A stretch of DNA of 38,076 nucleotides, from positions 1-38,076 of the IMG/VR virus record IMGVR_UViG_3300010354_000011. One strand, 5' to 3'. Below, piece after piece: positions 1 through 38,076 of the stretch; the stretch's first letter is position 1, and each line of letters begins with the position of its first letter. The notes below the pieces were generated by a model. That model was not told the DNA's origin and made no database searches. It saw only the letters and a list, made by a program, of their open reading frames with translations. The position numbers were made by a program, and so were the translations under genes. The stretch comes from a virus.

Positions 1-123
1 CGGATCAATTTCCTGCGCGTGGACGAGGCGTGCTCCCATGAGAGCAGCCAGCTCAGTCGGGTGCCGCTGATTGTTCGACGCCAAGAAAACGTCCGCGCTG
101 GCCACCGCGGCGTAATCGCCAAG
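1..123. repeat. Terminal direct repeat, copy 1
   Basis: Bases 1-123 are identical to 37954-38076. The primase-helicase reading frame continues exactly across the join, so the repeat is terminal redundancy of a circular or circularly permuted genome, or an assembly overlap, rather than two functional copies. The unique length is 37,953 bp. Confidence 0.95.
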
Positions 124-1794
124 GATAGCACCTACCGCGCCAAGGAACGTCCCTTTGCCATTGCCCCCGGAGCCGTGCGCAAACGCAAGCACATGCTCCT
201 TCACGCTACCCGTCGCCGAGTAGCCCGCGAGCCTCTGCAAATACGCCTTCAACTCCATGTCCCCGTTGCACGCCTCATTCAGAAACGCGTGCCACTGCGG
301 ACAGCCGCGATCAAAATCCACCTCGACGGCAGTCACCTTCGTGCACAGCTTCGAGCGATCATGCGGATGCAACTCGCCCGTGCGCAGATCGACGATCCCG
401 TTCTTGCAGTTAAGGATATAAATATCCCTGTCCAACTGCTCGGTCGTCACCTGCATCATCGGGTCCGTCTCGGCGATCTGCGCCACGTTGCGCATCACCG
501 GCCACGACGCCACGCGCGACGCCACCCTCTCGCCCTTCGTCGCCGGTGTCACCTTCTGCAACGCCTCGGCCGACGCCTTCGAACAAACACTACGCGTGAA
601 CGCCATGTGCCTCTTGGCCACATCACGCCCCCACTTGACCCCGTCCCAAGCAATCCAGCCCAGCCCACCGGCCACATACCGTATGTCGGACACGTGAAGG
701 CGGGCCAGCCGGCTTGCCAACGCGCTGTCCGAATACTCCACCGGCGTCTCACTATCACTCGCTAGCAAGTCCGAGTAATCATCATCGTCCGGATCAATCG
801 TATCGAACTCCGTGACCTCCGGTTTCAACCCGAACGCCCGCGCCTTGTCCTCGATCCAGTCCCAGCCCAACTCATAGGGCGGGTGCATACGGCCGAAGTC
901 CGCCTCGATATTCTCTACCGAATTGACCCCGTCCTCCCACGACAGCGCCCACTCCGTAAACAACGCCAGCGCCTCACTCTCATTGTCCGGGCCAGCCGCA
1001 GCCTTGATCGCATACCCCATCCGGATATAGTCGTCCCGATCCGGAAAATGCTCAGACGTGTTAGGGACCATTCTAAGGGCCGCTGAGAGCCTTTCCACGC
1101 TCGGAGCTACTAGGGTAGCCTGATTGACGTTCGAACGCTCCACGGCCCTCTCAGCGGCCGTGTCGGCATGAATAATCTCACACCCCGTCATCTCCAGCGT
1201 CTCGACAAGGTCCGCAAAGAACTTCTCGACCTGCTCCCTACCCACCTTGCGCAGACAGCGCGGCCCCCGCGCCGTGATATCTTGGTCAAGGGTGTAAGGT
1301 TCCTTGGTGACGGGATGCACACCGGCGATCACGTATTGCTGGCCATCGCCGAGAAGCTCGACCAGTTGCTCGACGCCCTTGCCGTCCCTAAACCGCAGCC
1401 GCATCCGGCCAATGGCGTCGTCGGTGCGGTACATGAGGAGCCGCTTGGGCGCCCGGCCGACACGCAGCGGCGCCGCGCCCAGCGCCTTTGTCGCCATGTC
1501 CGCGATGATGCGGGCCAAACTCTCGTTCACCACATCAATGTCCAGCGCCGGGTATTTCCCCGCCTTCAGGCCGATGTTGGCGTGGCTGCGGTCCCACCTC
1601 TCAATATCGTTAGGTGTCGGATCGTATGTCTGCCACGCGTAGCCACCCCACGTGCCCTGAGCGTTCTGTCGGCCGGGCGCTTTGCCCGCTTGGTCCGCTG
1701 CGATCTTCGACAACTCCGACAGCGGAGCAGCAGGCGGTATGACGCTGACTAACTCTTTGAAACCAGCCTCATAAAGCTTCTTAAATGTAAGCAT
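1..1794 (-). CDS. Prim-pol / D5-family primase-helicase, N-terminal 598 codons (continues at 37953)
   Basis: This gene starts at ATG 1794, after GAGAGG five bases upstream, and runs off the left edge. It continues in frame at 37953 and stops at 37258, giving 829 residues in all. The N-terminus matches the bifunctional primase-polymerase fold: a K-A-P-x-x-x-N segment near 38-44, NIGL at 73-76, the metal-binding pair D85/D87 in PALDID, and a later GVHP motif of the sxH type. A D5_N-like region follows, then a superfamily 3 Walker A, GSGGNGKGT, at 541-549 with catalytic K547. The family makes primers and unwinds the fork, usually as a ring helicase. It diverges from the DNA polymerase gene across a 125-bp control region and overlaps a DUF3310 gene at its stop. 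The family assignment is secure; the exact split of activities is inferred. Confidence 0.9.
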   Translation of the reverse strand, partial: MLTFKKLYEAGFKELVSVIPPAAPLSELSKIAADQAGKAPGRQNAQGTWGGYAWQTYDPTPNDIERWDRSHANIGLKAGKYPALDIDVVNESLARIIADMATKALGAAPLRVGRAPKRLLMYRTDDAIGRMRLRFRDGKGVEQLVELLGDGQQYVIAGVHPVTKEPYTLDQDITARGPRCLRKVGREQVEKFFADLVETLEMTGCEIIHADTAAERAVERSNVNQATLVAPSVERLSAALRMVPNTSEHFPDRDDYIRMGYAIKAAAGPDNESEALALFTEWALSWEDGVNSVENIEADFGRMHPPYELGWDWIEDKARAFGLKPEVTEFDTIDPDDDDYSDLLASDSETPVEYSDSALASRLARLHVSDIRYVAGGLGWIAWDGVKWGRDVAKRHMAFTRSVCSKASAEALQKVTPATKGERVASRVASWPVMRNVAQIAETDPMMQVTTEQLDRDIYILNCKNGIVDLRTGELHPHDRSKLCTKVTAVEVDFDRGCPQWHAFLNEACNGDMELKAYLQRLAGYSATGSVKEHVLAFAHGSGGNGKGTFLGAVGAILGDYAAVASADVFLASNNQRHPTELAALMGARLVHAQEIDP

Positions 1795-1919
1795 GAAGTC
1801 CTCTCGTCTTTGGAAATGCCGGGCAAACTGGCACAGAAAGCAGTCGCATGGCAACACGATTTTTTTTCTTGACTACCTGTGGATGGGTGTGCGAGCGTTA
1901 AGGGAGACGAGGAGAAAAC
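1795..1919. promoter_or_regulatory. Divergent control region between primase-helicase and DNA polymerase
   Basis: This 125-bp spacer separates two divergent replication operons. A T-run followed by TTGACT (1869-1874) is a good -35 candidate for the plus operon; no clear -10 follows, only weak matches around 1892-1900. TGTGGATGG at 1878-1886 is a 7/9 match to a DnaA box on the minus strand. AGGGAGACGAGGAG (about 1901-1914) is the ribosome binding site for the polymerase. The same TTGACTA start recurs at 34429 ahead of the second plus operon. Confidence 0.4.
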
Positions 1920-4022: not shown

Positions 4023-4334
4023 GTGAAGAGAGAGATTGTTAAGCTGTGCGCGGACCTGTTCGATATTTCTCCGGAGGATTTGCTCAGCAGCAAACGCCGG
4101 CAGCGGATCACGCACGCCCGCATGGCGCTCTACGCGGGGTTGCGGAAGCGGGGCTGGTCCTATCCGCGGATTGGTATGTTCTGCAACCGCGACCACTCGA
4201 CGATTATTTATGGTGTGCGCGCCGCAGAGGAATTGATGCGCCGCTACCCGGCTTACGCTGAAAAAGTTGAGAAAGTTTTTTCTTGGCAACCTTATTTTGT
4301 TGAGTTACCTCAGAGCGAGGAGATAAAGCAATGA
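4023..4334 (+). CDS. DnaA domain IV-like DNA-binding protein
   Basis: This 103-residue protein starts at GTG 4023 after GAGGAAGAC. Residues about 29-70 match the C-terminal DNA-binding domain of the replication initiator DnaA: ITHARMALY, a PRIGMFCNRDHST stretch with the diagnostic DHST at 57-60, and a following helix. The AAA+ ATPase and domains I-II of DnaA are absent. Known single-domain relatives bind DnaA-box-like DNA, so it may mark the phage origin, recruit the replisome or compete with host DnaA. A near-consensus box lies at 36660-36668. It follows the polymerase in the same operon and its stop overlaps the next start (ATGA). Confidence 0.85.
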   Translation: MKREIVKLCADLFDISPEDLLSSKRRQRITHARMALYAGLRKRGWSYPRIGMFCNRDHSTIIYGVRAAEELMRRYPAYAEKVEKVFSWQPYFVELPQSEEIKQ

Positions 4335-16450: not shown

Positions 16451-16822
16451 CTAGAGTTCCTTAACCACCGTAGTGCATAAATATTTGGCGCCACGGCTTT
16501 CTAATGCTCGCATCCACCCCTTTCTACCCGAAACAGATAGAGATGCACACCCCGTAGCTTTAGCATAAATTTCCATAGAATCCCACATGTCTAGCAGTTC
16601 GTCTAGTTTACCGCCAGCGAGAAAGACGTGGAGCGTCTGTCTTTTTGGATACGTGTGGAACTCCGTAATAATCGCGCTCTCTTTGCCCGGCCAAAACTGG
16701 AAGCGCCCTTTTTGCACGCCCTGCCAGATATGTTCGATGTCGTGCGTGTCATCGGCGTATTCGAGGGCGTCCTCGAGCCAAGACTTACACCGTTCGAACT
16801 CTTGTTCTAACTCCATCGTCAT
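16451..16822 (-). CDS. Putative GNAT-like small protein beside the tail genes
   Basis: A 123-residue protein from ATG 16822, which overlaps the previous stop (ATGA). The layout resembles a short acetyltransferase-like fold seen in many phages: a helical start (ELEQEFERCKSWLEDALE), a GVQKGRFQFWPG strand, a HVFLAGGKLDELLDM segment and CASLSVSGRKGWMRALES. The acetyl-CoA loop is not clear, so activity is uncertain. In related phages this gene is found in the same place, beside tail and decoration proteins. Confidence 0.5.
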   Translation of the reverse strand: MTMELEQEFERCKSWLEDALEYADDTHDIEHIWQGVQKGRFQFWPGKESAIITEFHTYPKRQTLHVFLAGGKLDELLDMWDSMEIYAKATGCASLSVSGRKGWMRALESRGAKYLCTTVVKEL

Positions 16823-17439
16823 TGGTGTATCTGCTCTACGTACACCTCGCAAGACGGCGATGCCGGAGCAAAAGCCGTTGCGCTTGTCGGGGACAGCGTC
16901 ACGTCGGTGCTGCTCGCGGCCCAGTATAGTTCGAGATAATCGCCCGCCGCCAAGGAGAAAGTGTCTTCGCGCGACAAGGTTTGGTACTCAGTGTTGGCGT
17001 GCATTGTCCGGACGAACGCGCTGTTGGCGACATCCGCCCCGTTCTTCCGCCACCAGAAGTATACCGTCTTATCGCTGGCAGAACCGGAGATAAACTGGAA
17101 CTTAGAGTAACACCGATACAGCCCGGCGTAGGTCACGACGATGCGCGACGCCGGAGACCCCAGCGCCACATTCTGCGAGATCACTGTCGAGTCCAACGGG
17201 ATCGACTGCGCCGTATTCGCGGTGGTGATCGCCAGCGATGTTGTGCGCAGGAACTCGGCTCGGCCGGGGGCCTGAATATACCGCGTCGTCTCGATGTTCG
17301 TCAGGATTAGATCGGCCGGATCGTCGATACGCACGTCTTGGCCGCGCTTGTAGTTCTGGCTGTCCGCTTGTTCGATCAGCCGGTTGCGCTGGTTCTCGTG
17401 GGACGACAGATAGTCCTGCGGAGGAACGGGGAGTTTCAT
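16819..17439 (-). CDS. C1q/jelly-roll-like virion protein
   Basis: A 206-residue protein. The first 60 residues (MKLPVPPQDYLSSHENQRNR and onward) form a polar attachment region. Residues 75-200 match the phage C1q/TNF-like jelly roll: GLYRCYSKFQFISGSASD, VYFWWRKNGADVANS, and GDYLELYWAASSTDV. It is probably a trimeric receptor-binding or capsid/tail decoration protein. The start overlaps the preceding stop (ATGA), tying it to the tail gene upstream. Confidence 0.7.
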   Translation of the reverse strand: MKLPVPPQDYLSSHENQRNRLIEQADSQNYKRGQDVRIDDPADLILTNIETTRYIQAPGRAEFLRTTSLAITTANTAQSIPLDSTVISQNVALGSPASRIVVTYAGLYRCYSKFQFISGSASDKTVYFWWRKNGADVANSAFVRTMHANTEYQTLSREDTFSLAAGDYLELYWAASSTDVTLSPTSATAFAPASPSCEVYVEQIHQ

Positions 17440-31792: not shown

Positions 31793-33340
31793 CTACACAA
31801 GCCCTCTTATATTTCGGCGCAGCGGCCCCTTATTGGCCGCGGACATCGAATACCCGTGGAGCGCAGTCGCTACGTCTGTCGCCAGACACAGGCACAGCGC
31901 GTCCGCCTTGTCGGGGCTGGACAGGCCGCGCTTCTTCATGCTCTCCTTACTCTCTACCTGCATCTTACCAGTGGACGTGAAGCTATACCTTGGCGCGGCC
32001 AGTTCCGCGAACAAGGTCTCGTCTTTGGGGATTTTCACGTCACGATTGGCCAGCCACGCCTTGGCCTTGAACCAGAGTTCGGCGCGCAGGTTCGCATACG
32101 TCCCCTTCATCGCCGGGCTTTCGGCCACGTTAATCCCCCTCGCCGGCAGGCCCAGTTCGCGCAAACGGTCAAGCACGCCCGCCCCCAGACCGATAGAGTC
32201 TACGAGGATTTCGACGGGCTGCTTGCTGGGTGGCAGGGCCTCGTATTCAGCAACGACGGCCCCGGTCAACTGCATCAAGTCGAGACCCTTCCAAGTCTGT
32301 ATCTCCTCGACAACCGAACCGCGGCGCTTGGCGAGGGCGCTGGCGTCGCTGCCCATACGCGCCACGTCCAGACCCCATACGCCCAGTGCAGTCTCGCTGG
32401 CCTTCATCTCGCGGTTCATCGCGGCGTCGATGAGTTCGACCGGGATCACCGTATCTTCTTCACGCGGCGGGAAGTTACCCAGAACGCGCACATGGTAGGC
32501 CGGGCTGTCCTCGCCGTACCGCAGTTGCATCTCCTTGACGAAGGCGTCGGACACACGCGGGCTGTCGAGGCACGACACATGGAACGTCTTCCATTCGCCC
32601 TTGAGGCGGTTGTGCGTGTCGTAGAAGAGGCCAGTGTTTCTGGTAGGGTTACCTAGCAAAAGCGTGGTGGCGCTGTGACCCGACATGGAACCAGACGCCG
32701 CTTCGAAAACGCTTTCCGGAATACCTGACGCTTCGTCGGCCACCAGCAGAACGTGGTCGGAGTGGATACCCTGCAAGGCTTCCGGCGTTTCAGCACGCGA
32801 TGTACGCGCAGAGATAAAGGCTTCTGTGGGGGCCGCTTTGAGTTCGATGCGGTCACTTTTCACCTCGACCAGCGTTTTCAGCACGTCAGGTAGTTCGTTG
32901 ACCCATCGCTTCAGTTCGGCGAACATAGCGTCAAACAACTGGCTAGAGGTTGGCGCAGTCACGACCACCTTCACCGGATAGCGGGTGAGGAAGTAGTGCA
33001 ACATCGCCCACGACGCGGCCGTGGACTTACCGACACCGTGGCCTGAGCGCACGGAGATGCGCCGGTGGCCTGCACTGATGGCTTCAAGGAATTTGATTTG
33101 CCACGGGTCGGGCTTCACGCGGAGGACATCCCGGACAAAACCGACAGGGTCGTCACGATACTTCTTCAGGAACATCAGGAAGAAGTTCGGCTGCTGCTGG
33201 CTGCTCTGGGACATCAGGTCAGCAGCCTCCTTCGCGGCCTTGGCGGCGCGGGACGGGTTGTCTGTCTTCAGCTTCGGCTCGGCCGACTTAGGAGCAGCCG
33301 TGCGCCGGCGGCGCGGCTTAGGGCTGGTGGACGAAGTCAT
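31793..33340 (-). CDS. terL: Terminase large subunit
   Basis: A 515-residue packaging motor from ATG 33340, with AGGAGAG six bases upstream, starting 23 bases inside the recombinase gene. The ATPase has Walker A SGHGVGKST (99-107, K105), Walker B VLLVADEAS with D202/E203, and an NPTRN coupling segment near 231. The nuclease part shows GLDVARMGSDAS with D325, D381 in EILVDSIGLGAG, and a C-terminal PDKADALCLC. The first 50 residues are Lys/Arg/Pro-rich. The small subunit is encoded on the other strand at 35766. The type fits headful packaging relatives. Confidence 0.92.
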   Translation of the reverse strand: MTSSTSPKPRRRRTAAPKSAEPKLKTDNPSRAAKAAKEAADLMSQSSQQQPNFFLMFLKKYRDDPVGFVRDVLRVKPDPWQIKFLEAISAGHRRISVRSGHGVGKSTAASWAMLHYFLTRYPVKVVVTAPTSSQLFDAMFAELKRWVNELPDVLKTLVEVKSDRIELKAAPTEAFISARTSRAETPEALQGIHSDHVLLVADEASGIPESVFEAASGSMSGHSATTLLLGNPTRNTGLFYDTHNRLKGEWKTFHVSCLDSPRVSDAFVKEMQLRYGEDSPAYHVRVLGNFPPREEDTVIPVELIDAAMNREMKASETALGVWGLDVARMGSDASALAKRRGSVVEEIQTWKGLDLMQLTGAVVAEYEALPPSKQPVEILVDSIGLGAGVLDRLRELGLPARGINVAESPAMKGTYANLRAELWFKAKAWLANRDVKIPKDETLFAELAAPRYSFTSTGKMQVESKESMKKRGLSSPDKADALCLCLATDVATALHGYSMSAANKGPLRRNIRGLV

Positions 33341-34007
33341 AGTGCTCTCCTGTGATGATCTTGCGGACCGTGACGTGGCTGATGTCGATGCCGTGCTTCT
33401 TGGCCACAATCTTCACTATGTCCCGATAACTGTGGCCCTTCAAGCGGGCCGCCTTCATCGTGATGATCGCGTCCTGCTCCTCCGGGTTCTCCCGCAGCCG
33501 CGAATTGCGACCATTCCCAGATCGTGAATAACCGAATGGCGGCTCGCCCCCGAGGAACCCACCGGCCTGCTGCTTGGCGCGGCGCCCGGCCAGAACGCGC
33601 TCCCGAATCCGGCGGCGCTCTTCGCCGCTGAACACGGCCATGATCTCAAGCATGAACCGGCCGTTCGGGTTGCTCTTGTCCATCACGTTCCCGTAGCCGT
33701 TGATGATGAGGTTGATCCCAGCCTCTTCCCAGTCCCCGATCACATTTAAGGCATCGCGGGCGTCGCGGAACATACGGTCGAGCTTCGATACAATGACGGT
33801 ATCGCCGGCCCGGAGGAACGCCAGCTTGCACCCTTCTTCTCGGCGCAGGAGGGGGACGGCGCCGGACACGCCCCGCTCTTCATAGATGTGCTCAAGCTCC
33901 AGATTGTGCGTGATCGCTATGCCTTTGATTTGGCGGGCCTGATCTTCAAGGCTGGTATTCTCGACCTGATCTTCGGTCGAGACGCGGGTGTATCCGTAGA
34001 CTGCCAC
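33318..34007 (-). CDS. Small serine recombinase (resolvase/invertase family)
   Basis: A 229-residue serine recombinase from GTG 34007, preceded by GAGGAGAAGCACA. The N-terminus YGYTRVSTEDQ places the catalytic serine at S10. VSKLDRMFRDARDAL and NGRFMLEIMAVFSGEERRRI are the usual catalytic-domain signatures. The C-terminal 80 residues carry an HTH (HSYRDIVKIVAKKHG). It is too short for a large serine integrase. It could resolve concatemers, invert a segment or act in lysogeny, but no clear target pair was seen. It leads directly into terL. Confidence 0.85.
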   Translation of the reverse strand: MAVYGYTRVSTEDQVENTSLEDQARQIKGIAITHNLELEHIYEERGVSGAVPLLRREEGCKLAFLRAGDTVIVSKLDRMFRDARDALNVIGDWEEAGINLIINGYGNVMDKSNPNGRFMLEIMAVFSGEERRRIRERVLAGRRAKQQAGGFLGGEPPFGYSRSGNGRNSRLRENPEEQDAIITMKAARLKGHSYRDIVKIVAKKHGIDISHVTVRKIITGEHYDFVHQP

Positions 34008-35765: not shown

Positions 35766-36281
35766 ATGGCCGGACATATCAAGCGGCGCACTATCGCCAG
35801 CAATCTCGACAAGGTCGGCGAGCACACGCTGCTAGAGAAGATTGCCAGCGGCATGACGATGGCGGGCCTCGCCCGTGAGCTACGCATCAGCAACCTCTCG
35901 CTCTATCATTGGATCAAGCAAGACCCCGACAGGCAGGAACGCTTCCGGCAGGCCCGCGCGCTTGCGGCCGATGCGTGGGCGGAAGAGTGCCTCGACATCG
36001 CAGATCAAGCCGACGGTGTCACGGCCAACGCTGACAGGCTGCGCGTGGAAACTAGGAAGTGGCTGGCCGGTGTCACCAACCCCGACAAATACAAGTCGGC
36101 CCCTGTCCAAGCGGCCGTGCAAGTGAACGTCAACCAGATGCACCTCGATGCCCTCAAGCAGCTCAGCCTTGGCAACGAAGGCACCACCGTTGAGGTCTCT
36201 GTACCGATCAAGCAAGTCGCCTCATCAAACCTCGATGTGGACGACTTGCCCGATCCGAACAGCGACGACATCTGGGATTAG
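35766..36281 (+). CDS. terS: Terminase small subunit
   Basis: A 171-residue protein from ATG 35766 (CAGAGGAATGAC upstream). It matches the Sf6-type small terminase: an HTH with TMAGLARELRISNLSLYHWI near 30-49, then DRQERFRQARALAADAWAEE, LDIADQADGVTANADRLRVE and TRKWLAGVTNPDKY. The C-terminus is acidic with DLPDPNSDD. It recognises the packaging site and feeds DNA to the large subunit. Unusually it is on the opposite strand from terL, 2.4 kb away, and next to the repeat array. A terminator lies just before it, so it likely has its own promoter. Confidence 0.88.
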   Translation: MAGHIKRRTIASNLDKVGEHTLLEKIASGMTMAGLARELRISNLSLYHWIKQDPDRQERFRQARALAADAWAEECLDIADQADGVTANADRLRVETRKWLAGVTNPDKYKSAPVQAAVQVNVNQMHLDALKQLSLGNEGTTVEVSVPIKQVASSNLDVDDLPDPNSDDIWD

Positions 36282-36369
36282 AGGCATCTGTTAAGTCGCC
36301 GGACGCCTTAACTGCCATCGCCTTAACACTTAACACTTCTCGGCCGAAAGCAATATTATTACCCAGTTT

Positions 36370-36652
36370 CGGGACGCTTATCTCGGCCTTCGGGACGCTT
36401 ACGGGACGCCAAGCCTCAAAAAAATCCCTATATATTTCAATACTCCGGGACGGCCGGGACGCTAGGGACGCTATTTTCTGAGTTTAGACCCCCCAAAAAA
36501 CTGGTAAGGCGTTCTAAGACGCGCTAACAGAAACGTAGAGGGGTATTAACTCAGATTTATGTGTCCCGGGCGTCCCGAGGGGCCAAAATCAAACACTTAT
36601 GGTGTCCCGGAGGCGTCCCGTAAGCGTCCCGAGCACCTCTCTAAGCGTCCCG
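36370..36652. repeat. Mirror-symmetric CGGGACGCTTA iteron array
   Basis: Plus-strand copies lie at 36370, 36391 and 36402, and shorter ones at 36446, 36455 and 36465. Inverted copies end at 36652, 36631 and 36620, with further ones at 36577 and 36568 and a partial copy ending at 36609. The first three copies in each arm have the same spacing (21 and 11 bp) and mirror around 36511; the inner pairs (spacing 9) mirror to within one base. Confidence 0.9.
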
Positions 36653-36659
36653 CCCGTTT

Positions 36660-36668
36660 TCATCCACA
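36660..36668 (+). other. Near-consensus DnaA box
   Basis: TCATCCACA differs by one base from TTATCCACA and sits 8 bp past the last repeat of the array. Confidence 0.4.
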
Positions 36669-36748: not shown

Positions 36749-37015
36749 ATGGCCCTCAAGTATGACTACACCAGCCCCTATCCAAGTTCGACAAGCGGCA
36801 TCCGCGGCGTGTCCTACGTCCCCGACCGGGACAAGTGGGACGCCAAGATAAGTTACAGAGGCCGCAGGGTGCGCCTCGGCCGCTTTGCCACGAAAGAGGA
36901 AGCCGCTGCCGCTTACGCTGTCGCAGCCGAAGAGATCAGGAAGCGCCTTGAGTCCGATCCCAACTTCCCGCGCCCGAAGACAATGGATCAGCGCATCCAA
37001 TCTCTCTTCGACTAA
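36749..37015 (+). CDS. AP2-domain DNA-binding protein
   Basis: An 88-residue protein from ATG 36749 (AAAGGAG upstream). Residues 16-62 match the AP2 DNA-binding fold: GIRGVSYVPDRDKWDAKISY, RGRRVRLGRFATKEEAAAAY, AVAAEEI. Standalone AP2 domains are known in phages, often inside homing endonucleases; here no nuclease part exists. It lies next to the symmetric repeat array, which makes it a candidate binding partner, but that is inference. Confidence 0.85.
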   Translation: MALKYDYTSPYPSSTSGIRGVSYVPDRDKWDAKISYRGRRVRLGRFATKEEAAAAYAVAAEEIRKRLESDPNFPRPKTMDQRIQSLFD

Positions 37016-37045: not shown

Positions 37046-37261
37046 TCATTCCTCCAACGCCGAGATTAGCCTGTCGAGATACCACCGAGCTTTGTGGAGG
37101 TCCTGCACCCCGTTCTTGTATCGGTAGCGCCAGACATACTTCTCGATGTTACCTTTCAGGTAGCCTTGGAACTCTTCGCGGCTCATTGAACTCTCAATCG
37201 CCTCGATGCACTCCACGCCCCCTTGCCGGTAATGCTCCGGCCGGTTGACCATATCCGTCAC
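37046..37261 (-). CDS. DUF3310 family protein
   Basis: A 71-residue protein from GTG 37261, which overlaps the primase-helicase stop (GTGA) and has AAGGAG eight bases upstream. VNRPEHYRQGGVECIEAIES and a GNIEKYVWRYRYKNGVQDLH segment are the DUF3310 signature, common in phage replication modules and sometimes called a nucleotide kinase without proof. Residues DLHKARWYLDRLI end the domain. Its role is unknown; the coupling ties it to replication. Confidence 0.85.
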   Translation of the reverse strand: MTDMVNRPEHYRQGGVECIEAIESSMSREEFQGYLKGNIEKYVWRYRYKNGVQDLHKARWYLDRLISALEE

Positions 37262-38076
37262 AGAAAATCTCCTTCCTCGTCACCATCATCAAACACCACG
37301 CGCACGCCGAAGAACTCGGACGCAGCCTCTTGCCGCAGCGCGTCGATCACCATCTCATCCTCGTCGCCAATGAGAAGCTCCAAACCACGGAACACACGCT
37401 TCGTACGTGACGCCCGGTCCTTGGCGATCTCATAGCCCTTGGCTCTCATCTCCGCCGAGAACTTGCGCTGGCTCCAGTCCTTGCCCTTGGCCTCGTTGCT
37501 CTGCCGCGCCCAGTCCCGGAAGTCATTGAACGCATCGGTCGTCCCCATTTCGCTGTTGGGGTTGACGACGCACCGCTCCTCGATCCACCGGCCGAGAGCA
37601 TCCTCACCTTCGAGATACTCCTGCGTCGCTCGGACAACCACCTCGGGCGGGTTCAACCCCTCGGCCAGCCAGAGCTTGGCCCCTTCCACCACCCACGCAA
37701 GGATGGCCGGGTATTCCTCCTTCAACTTATCCGGCAAGTCTACATCCTTCCTTGCCGGCTTCGTCTCGAACGGGATGAGGTGCATACGCCGCCGCATTGC
37801 ATCATCCACATTAGTAATCTCCGGCTTCGTATTCCCGGCGATGACGAGCGTGAACTGCGGGTCGAACGTAAACAAGTCCTGCCGCATGAAGCGCGCGCTG
37901 ATCTTGTCCCCGCCAGTGAGGCTCTTGACCTTGGCCTCGTCCCACTTCCTGCTCGGATCAATTTCCTGCGCGTGGACGAGGCGTGCTCCCATGAGAGCAG
38001 CCAGCTCAGTCGGGTGCCGCTGATTGTTCGACGCCAAGAAAACGTCCGCGCTGGCCACCGCGGCGTAATCGCCAAG
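37258..38076 (-). CDS. Primase-helicase, C-terminal part (continues from the gene at 1-1794)
   Basis: These bases encode the C-terminal part of the 829-residue prim-pol/D5/SF3 helicase; bases 37954-38076 repeat 1-123, so the non-redundant part starts at 37953. The Walker B region is GARLVHAQEID, shortly after Walker A. Further on are DKISARFMRQDLFTF and a TLVIAGNTKPEITNVDDAMR sensor-like segment, then RRMHLIPFETKP, typical of the poxvirus D5-like/P4 helicases. The C-terminal winged-helix-like region (RWIEERCVVNPNSEMGTTDA) binds DNA. Reading through the joint gives one intact protein. Confidence 0.9.
   Translation of the reverse strand, partial: LGDYAAVASADVFLASNNQRHPTELAALMGARLVHAQEIDPSRKWDEAKVKSLTGGDKISARFMRQDLFTFDPQFTLVIAGNTKPEITNVDDAMRRRMHLIPFETKPARKDVDLPDKLKEEYPAILAWVVEGAKLWLAEGLNPPEVVVRATQEYLEGEDALGRWIEERCVVNPNSEMGTTDAFNDFRDWARQSNEAKGKDWSQRKFSAEMRAKGYEIAKDRASRTKRVFRGLELLIGDEDEMVIDALRQEAASEFFGVRVVFDDGDEEGDFL
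37954..38076. repeat. Terminal direct repeat, copy 2
   Basis: Identical to bases 1-123. It marks the end of the circular unit. Confidence 0.95.

Follow-up and report, generated by a model that had tools for sequence, protein, structure and literature searches.

In bacteriophage P4, the functions of initiator, helicase and primase are united in one protein, α, which acts with the ori and crr repeats, and two separate sites are used. SV40 large T antigen and papillomavirus E1 are SF3-type helicases that load in the form of opposed hexamers onto pentamer boxes of opposite orientation. In SaPIs, the C-terminal domain of Rep reads iterons located just downstream of its own gene, apparently as two hexamers, and the isolated C-terminal domain of SCCmec Cch2 binds 5-nt AAGTG iterons, also just downstream of its own gene (PMC7581432). 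The analogy between SaPI-type systems and SV40/E1 has already been drawn in the same work. Little is known about the way in which hexameric helicases come to lie head to head at the origins of bacterial viruses.

The locus considered here lies in a viral record of 38,076 nucleotides (IMGVR_UViG_3300010354_000011), analysed at full length and hereafter called the window. It shares with SaPIs the presence of short iterons just downstream of a helicase gene, here after a helicase–DUF3310 gene pair in related loci, and its primase-helicase belongs to the same helicase family as SaPI5 Rep/PriRep (PDB 7OLA; hmmsearch E-value 2e-9). With Cch2 it has in common a Primase_Cterm/D5-type helicase, and with P4 α the membership of the P4-family primases (TIGR01613). 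However, the SaPI parallel concerns a satellite, whereas a complete phage is involved here, with a near-invariant mirror, about six boxes per arm and a repeated natural two-residue switch. The Cch2 site has only three direct repeats, and opposed arms are not described there; P4 has its two sites where a single mirrored array is found here; and in SV40/E1 the DNA-binding domain is N-terminal, the boxes are fewer and the origins are not homologous. A preliminary description of this DNA, made from the sequence alone, knew of no element with such a layout. This holds for the mirrored array, no account of which in phages was found in a literature search of partial coverage, but not for iteron origins just downstream of self-loading helicase genes, of which SaPI and SCC elements provide examples (PMC7581432). 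In other words, the type of origin proposed below is known; what looks new, in a phage family of lytic appearance, is how little the mirror varies and how repeatedly the two residues have switched in nature.

The mirrored array and its genomic setting

Bases 1–123 of the window are identical to bases 37,954–38,076, and the record therefore represents a phage genome that is circular and complete, opened within the helicase gene. This genome encodes a portal, terminases and further structural proteins of its own, and the satellite trait of borrowing a helper capsid, as in SaPI, was not found. A serine recombinase gene lies beside the terminase gene (33,318–34,007) and is kept in complete relatives. 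A stand-alone DnaA domain IV protein is encoded at 4,023–4,334. The relevant features are as follows; the names TerS and AP2, already given in the preliminary description, are confirmed by Pfam.

1..1857, minus strand: primase-helicase, N-terminal part, same gene split by the record ends
35766..36281, plus strand: small terminase subunit (TerS, Sf6 type), 3′ end toward the array (Pfam)
36370..36469, plus strand: left arm, six GGGAC boxes at 36371, 36392, 36403, 36447, 36456 and 36465
36470..36562, no strand: inter-arm spacer with an imperfect dyad at about 36502–36528 (GGTAAGGCGTTCTAAGACGCGCTAAC)
36563..36651, minus strand: right arm, six minus-strand boxes (GTCCC) at 36563, 36572, 36604, 36615, 36626 and 36647
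36660..36668, plus strand: DnaA-like box TCATCCACA, one mismatch
36749..37015, plus strand: AP2-domain gene, 88 aa, optional neighbour (Pfam)
37046..37261, minus strand: DUF3310 gene, between helicase and array
37258..38076, minus strand: P4-family primase-helicase, C-terminal part, proposed initiator and box reader (DUF5906 above cut-off)
37369..37596, minus strand: helicase C-terminal winged-helix domain (approximate limits)
37420..37422, minus strand: codon of reader residue x2 (Lys in the window)
37456..37458, minus strand: codon of reader residue x1 (Ser in the window)

The 11-bp unit CGGGACGCTTA occurs exactly at 36370 and 36391 on the plus strand and at 36621 and 36642 on the minus strand, with no other copy in the 38-kb record. 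Its core pentamer appears as six GGGAC copies on the plus strand followed by six on the minus strand, centred on 36511. The three outer box pairs, with steps of 21 and 11 bp, mirror each other exactly about 36511, and the inner 9-bp pair (36447/36456 versus 36572/36563) mirrors about 36511.5, i.e. half a base off, so that the opposed arms and their symmetry are as first described. The left partner of the right-arm box at 36604, due at 36414, has been lost, but a third inner box at 36465 is additional to the left arm, so both arms still hold six. In the whole window, no pentamer other than GGGAC gives six forward and then six reverse copies within 300 bp, and only 3–5 copies per arm were reached in 20 first-order Markov shuffles of the window. 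When a spacing template derived from relatives was applied to the window locus, it scored 60/72, against 42–43 for shuffled loci.

The central palindrome noticed earlier is present as the imperfect dyad, and the near-consensus DnaA box lies at the place given for it. The AT-rich segment is so only in part, since the spacer has an AT content of about 50–60% against 40% for the genome, a moderate richness between the two opposed box sets. The spacer sequence is lineage-specific, with a 67-bp piece 98.5% conserved where both arms differ, and the spacer is the probable duplex-opening region. GC skew follows gene strand along the genome and gives no pointer to an origin position. A search of the locus for promoters and terminators yielded nothing convincing, with two weak promoter-like matches at 36330–36359.

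Conservation among relatives and covariation with the helicase

The first set of relatives comprised 80 viral contigs with a related helicase, all of metagenomic origin; except for contigs added later, the same collection served both discovery and counting. In these relatives the array lies, as in the window, between the primase-helicase/DUF3310 genes and terS, and terS adjoins it in all loci reaching both. A scan with a template based on spacing only indicates that most contigs reaching terS share the mirrored geometry (54–68/72, versus 42–43 after shuffling), the commonest box offsets from each outer end being 0, 21, 32, 43/44, 75 and 84; a second geometry, with inner triplets, is found in other contigs. 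Simple-pattern counts gave exactly 6+6 boxes in 52 of the 93 typed loci and 7+6 in 10. Many of the remaining loci are truncated, either by the contig end or by the limits of the search, or contain degenerate boxes, and among complete arrays 6+6 is the majority arrangement. Six boxes per arm are thus usual across loci, with exceptions. A comparison with related genomes had been suggested as a check in the preliminary description; the outcome is that the mirrored spacing is kept and the box sequence varies. Judged from such sequence comparisons, the array appears to be a constrained element, in line with the protein-binding platform first suspected. A scan of genomes for possible hosts returned a single match (L194, CP070811.1), a piece of phage helicase joined by Ns into the chromosome of an Anaerolineales MAG; it is a probable contamination and gives no host information.

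Two main box types can be distinguished, namely A boxes, GGGAC(G/A), and B boxes, GTGCAC, GTGCCG or GGGCCG, and the spacing persists despite this difference. The arrays of L026 and L027 are mixtures of CGGAC and GGCC. Box type is related to two residues of the helicase, which are found in the motif WSQRKF[x1]-11-[x2]D. With A boxes (GGGAC), x1 is S, T, I or V and x2 is K, while with B boxes (GTGC/GGGCC), x1 is N and x2 is R; two contigs with the S+R combination have mixed boxes. This rule holds in 90 of the 91 typed contigs (36 A and 54 B). It was formed on the first set, and agreement was then found in 7 contigs with partial arrays and in 17/17 new contigs of a second scan. Another locus, L024 (5043–5203), is ambiguous for the rule, having C-type residues and a collapsed array with only two B-like boxes, a near-loss that is possibly an assembly collapse. 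Gain or loss of other phage genes was also considered, and none switches with box type.

The sole misfit is L011/L117 (G007, 16600–17400), where a B-type helicase stands beside A boxes. The helicase was at first dismissed as reader on these grounds, given that L117 and the B-type L119 share an identical helicase and differ in their boxes. However, L117 is identical to L119 through helicase and DUF3310 but follows the window phage from AP2 through the array, a pattern suggestive of recombination or of chimeric assembly, the junction falling between DUF3310 and array. As no other contig misfitted and the alignment of L117 changes between DUF3310 and array, the helicase was reconsidered as reader.

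Kinship was taken into account with a tree built from the helicase minus its C-terminal domain. On this tree, at least 18 changes of box type are required, 11 of them on well-supported branches. In 10 of the 11 independent pairs both residues change the same way as the box, and never in the opposite way (p = 0.002); L011 may well be part of the remaining pair.

The assignment of the protein itself relies on the full-length homologue L006, 99% identical to the helicase fragment of the window, which matches TIGR01613 with an E-value of 2e-89 (299 bits, for a cut-off of 108.7); by sequence, it is classed as a P4-family (SF3-type) primase-helicase. AlphaFold2 was applied to the last 150 residues of an A-type relative (L138), with an alignment of 57 sequences, and the model reaches a pLDDT of about 90 over the winged-helix domain; the model of the full-length helicase had a pLDDT of 44 and was left unused. 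Modelled helices span residues 57–70, 74–77 and 81–90, and strands 95–97 and 105–112, which places x1 (model residue 85) in the predicted recognition helix and x2 (model residue 97) in the wing strand. Among solved structures, the fold is best matched by the RFX DNA-binding domain and by a D5-type primase in its C-terminal domain, with Z-scores of 8.7–9.2, although the Foldseek E-values are weak, none being better than 0.005. The helicase is thus predicted to have a C-terminal DNA-binding domain suited to reading iterons, and its covariation with the boxes points the same way.

A putative self-loading origin and competing readings

Since the helicase is of the P4 family, like the SaPI and P4 initiators, the array can be read as an origin. 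Taken together, the data make it highly probable that the array serves as a replication origin of the type with a self-loading initiator helicase, its boxes bound by the helicase C-terminal winged helix. The preliminary description had listed an origin among its readings, and this is the best-supported one, with a binder, the helicase, that it had not named. Place, mirror spacing, box types and two-residue covariation were computed; from them we infer binding, hexamer loading, melting and origin activity. The C-terminal winged helix of the primase-helicase would bind the boxes and, given the opposed arms around a dyad-containing middle, each arm would collect one hexamer. Placed head to head, these hexamers would melt the middle of about 100 bp, two forks would leave in opposite directions, and the primase domain and PolA would then begin synthesis. 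That an arm usually holds about six boxes hints at one box for each subunit of a hexamer. A more ambitious proposal, put forward tentatively, is that the 6+6 array is a stoichiometric template, with one box per subunit, on which two hexamers of the SF3 type face each other head to head in a fixed helical phase, and that the two-residue code (S/T+K for GGGAC, N+R for GTGC/GGGCC, S+R for both) lets phages switch origin specificity repeatedly as a module, possibly escaping parasites or cross-talk between co-infecting phages. The phage family amounts to a natural experiment, in which dozens of members share the spacing but fall into two box types, with two residues that differ to match. Initiator–origin specificity and the idea of one box per subunit become directly testable, and the helicase gene alone could point to origins in uncultured phages.

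Among competing readings, that of a pac site bound by TerS, raised in the preliminary description, draws on the terS gene ending beside the array in all loci that reach both. Pac sites can contain repeated boxes. However, no TerS residue tracks box type (best column 0.71), whereas helicase residues do, and TerS is 97–100% identical between the window and the B-type L009 and L012–L014 despite their different boxes, which leaves this reading very unlikely. Plasmid iterons also serve control, and covariation identifies only the reader; the helicase might thus read the boxes at a copy-control or handcuffing site that is not the start site. This too has little probability, as the array is the only one of its kind in the complete genome and its position, conserved in relatives, is the one typical of SaPI-type origins (PMC7581432).

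It is also conceivable that box type and helicase residues simply co-travel as neighbours on one recombining segment, the reader being another protein. Residues and array are indeed about 1 kb or less apart, and the window phage and L119 differ locally in both. Yet DUF3310, which lies in between, has no residues that track box type (at most 0.70), and third codon positions predict it with a median accuracy of 0.56 (95th percentile 0.69), those near the two codons included in the failure to track it. As neither synonymous sites nor the intervening DUF3310 follow box type, mere co-transfer is no explanation; with a similar link in the distant AcaML1-like family (see below), this reading is highly improbable.

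Least credible of all is an operator or control region bound by the AP2 or the DnaA-domain-IV protein: the AP2 gene does start about 100 bp from the array with the near-DnaA box in between, and AP2-like matches are confined to A-type loci (9 versus 0), but most A-type arrays lack an AP2 match, intact arrays without AP2 exist (e.g. L005), the DnaA-domain-IV gene was found in only 12 of 45 related records, many of which are fragmentary, and is kept in A- and B-type sisters alike, and the DnaA-like box, absent beside B-type sister arrays, is found only in window-like A-type relatives. Neither protein is supported as an essential binder of the boxes. In loci that lack an inserted AP2 or HNH gene, the array is flanked by two convergent genes whose 3′ ends face it, and the control region evoked earlier, or a promoter region, is therefore unlikely. 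A DnaA-type origin is not indicated either, with one near-consensus box in the window and near boxes in 25 of the 93 loci. AP2 was likewise rejected as reader, being an optional gene that an HNH/AP2-type homing-endonuclease-like gene seems to replace in some relatives. Such genes occur between DUF3310 and array in many relatives (L046, L048, L069 and others).

The self-loading origin proposed here may have distant counterparts. In phages and prophages resembling Acidithiobacillus phage AcaML1 (L200–L279), opposed boxes lie right after a homologous primase gene, with the difference that there are two to three boxes per arm, of sequence TGACGG, TGACGC or TGAAGG; no description of an origin of this type was found in a literature search of partial coverage. 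In the 80 loci, the recognition-helix residue before a conserved RF is K with TGACGG (29:2), R with TGACGC (28:0) and IK with TGAAGG (5), these being raw counts with kinship ignored. In mycobacteriophage MacnCheese (L199:3774–4016), opposed GGCACAGAT repeats are found right after the primase gene.
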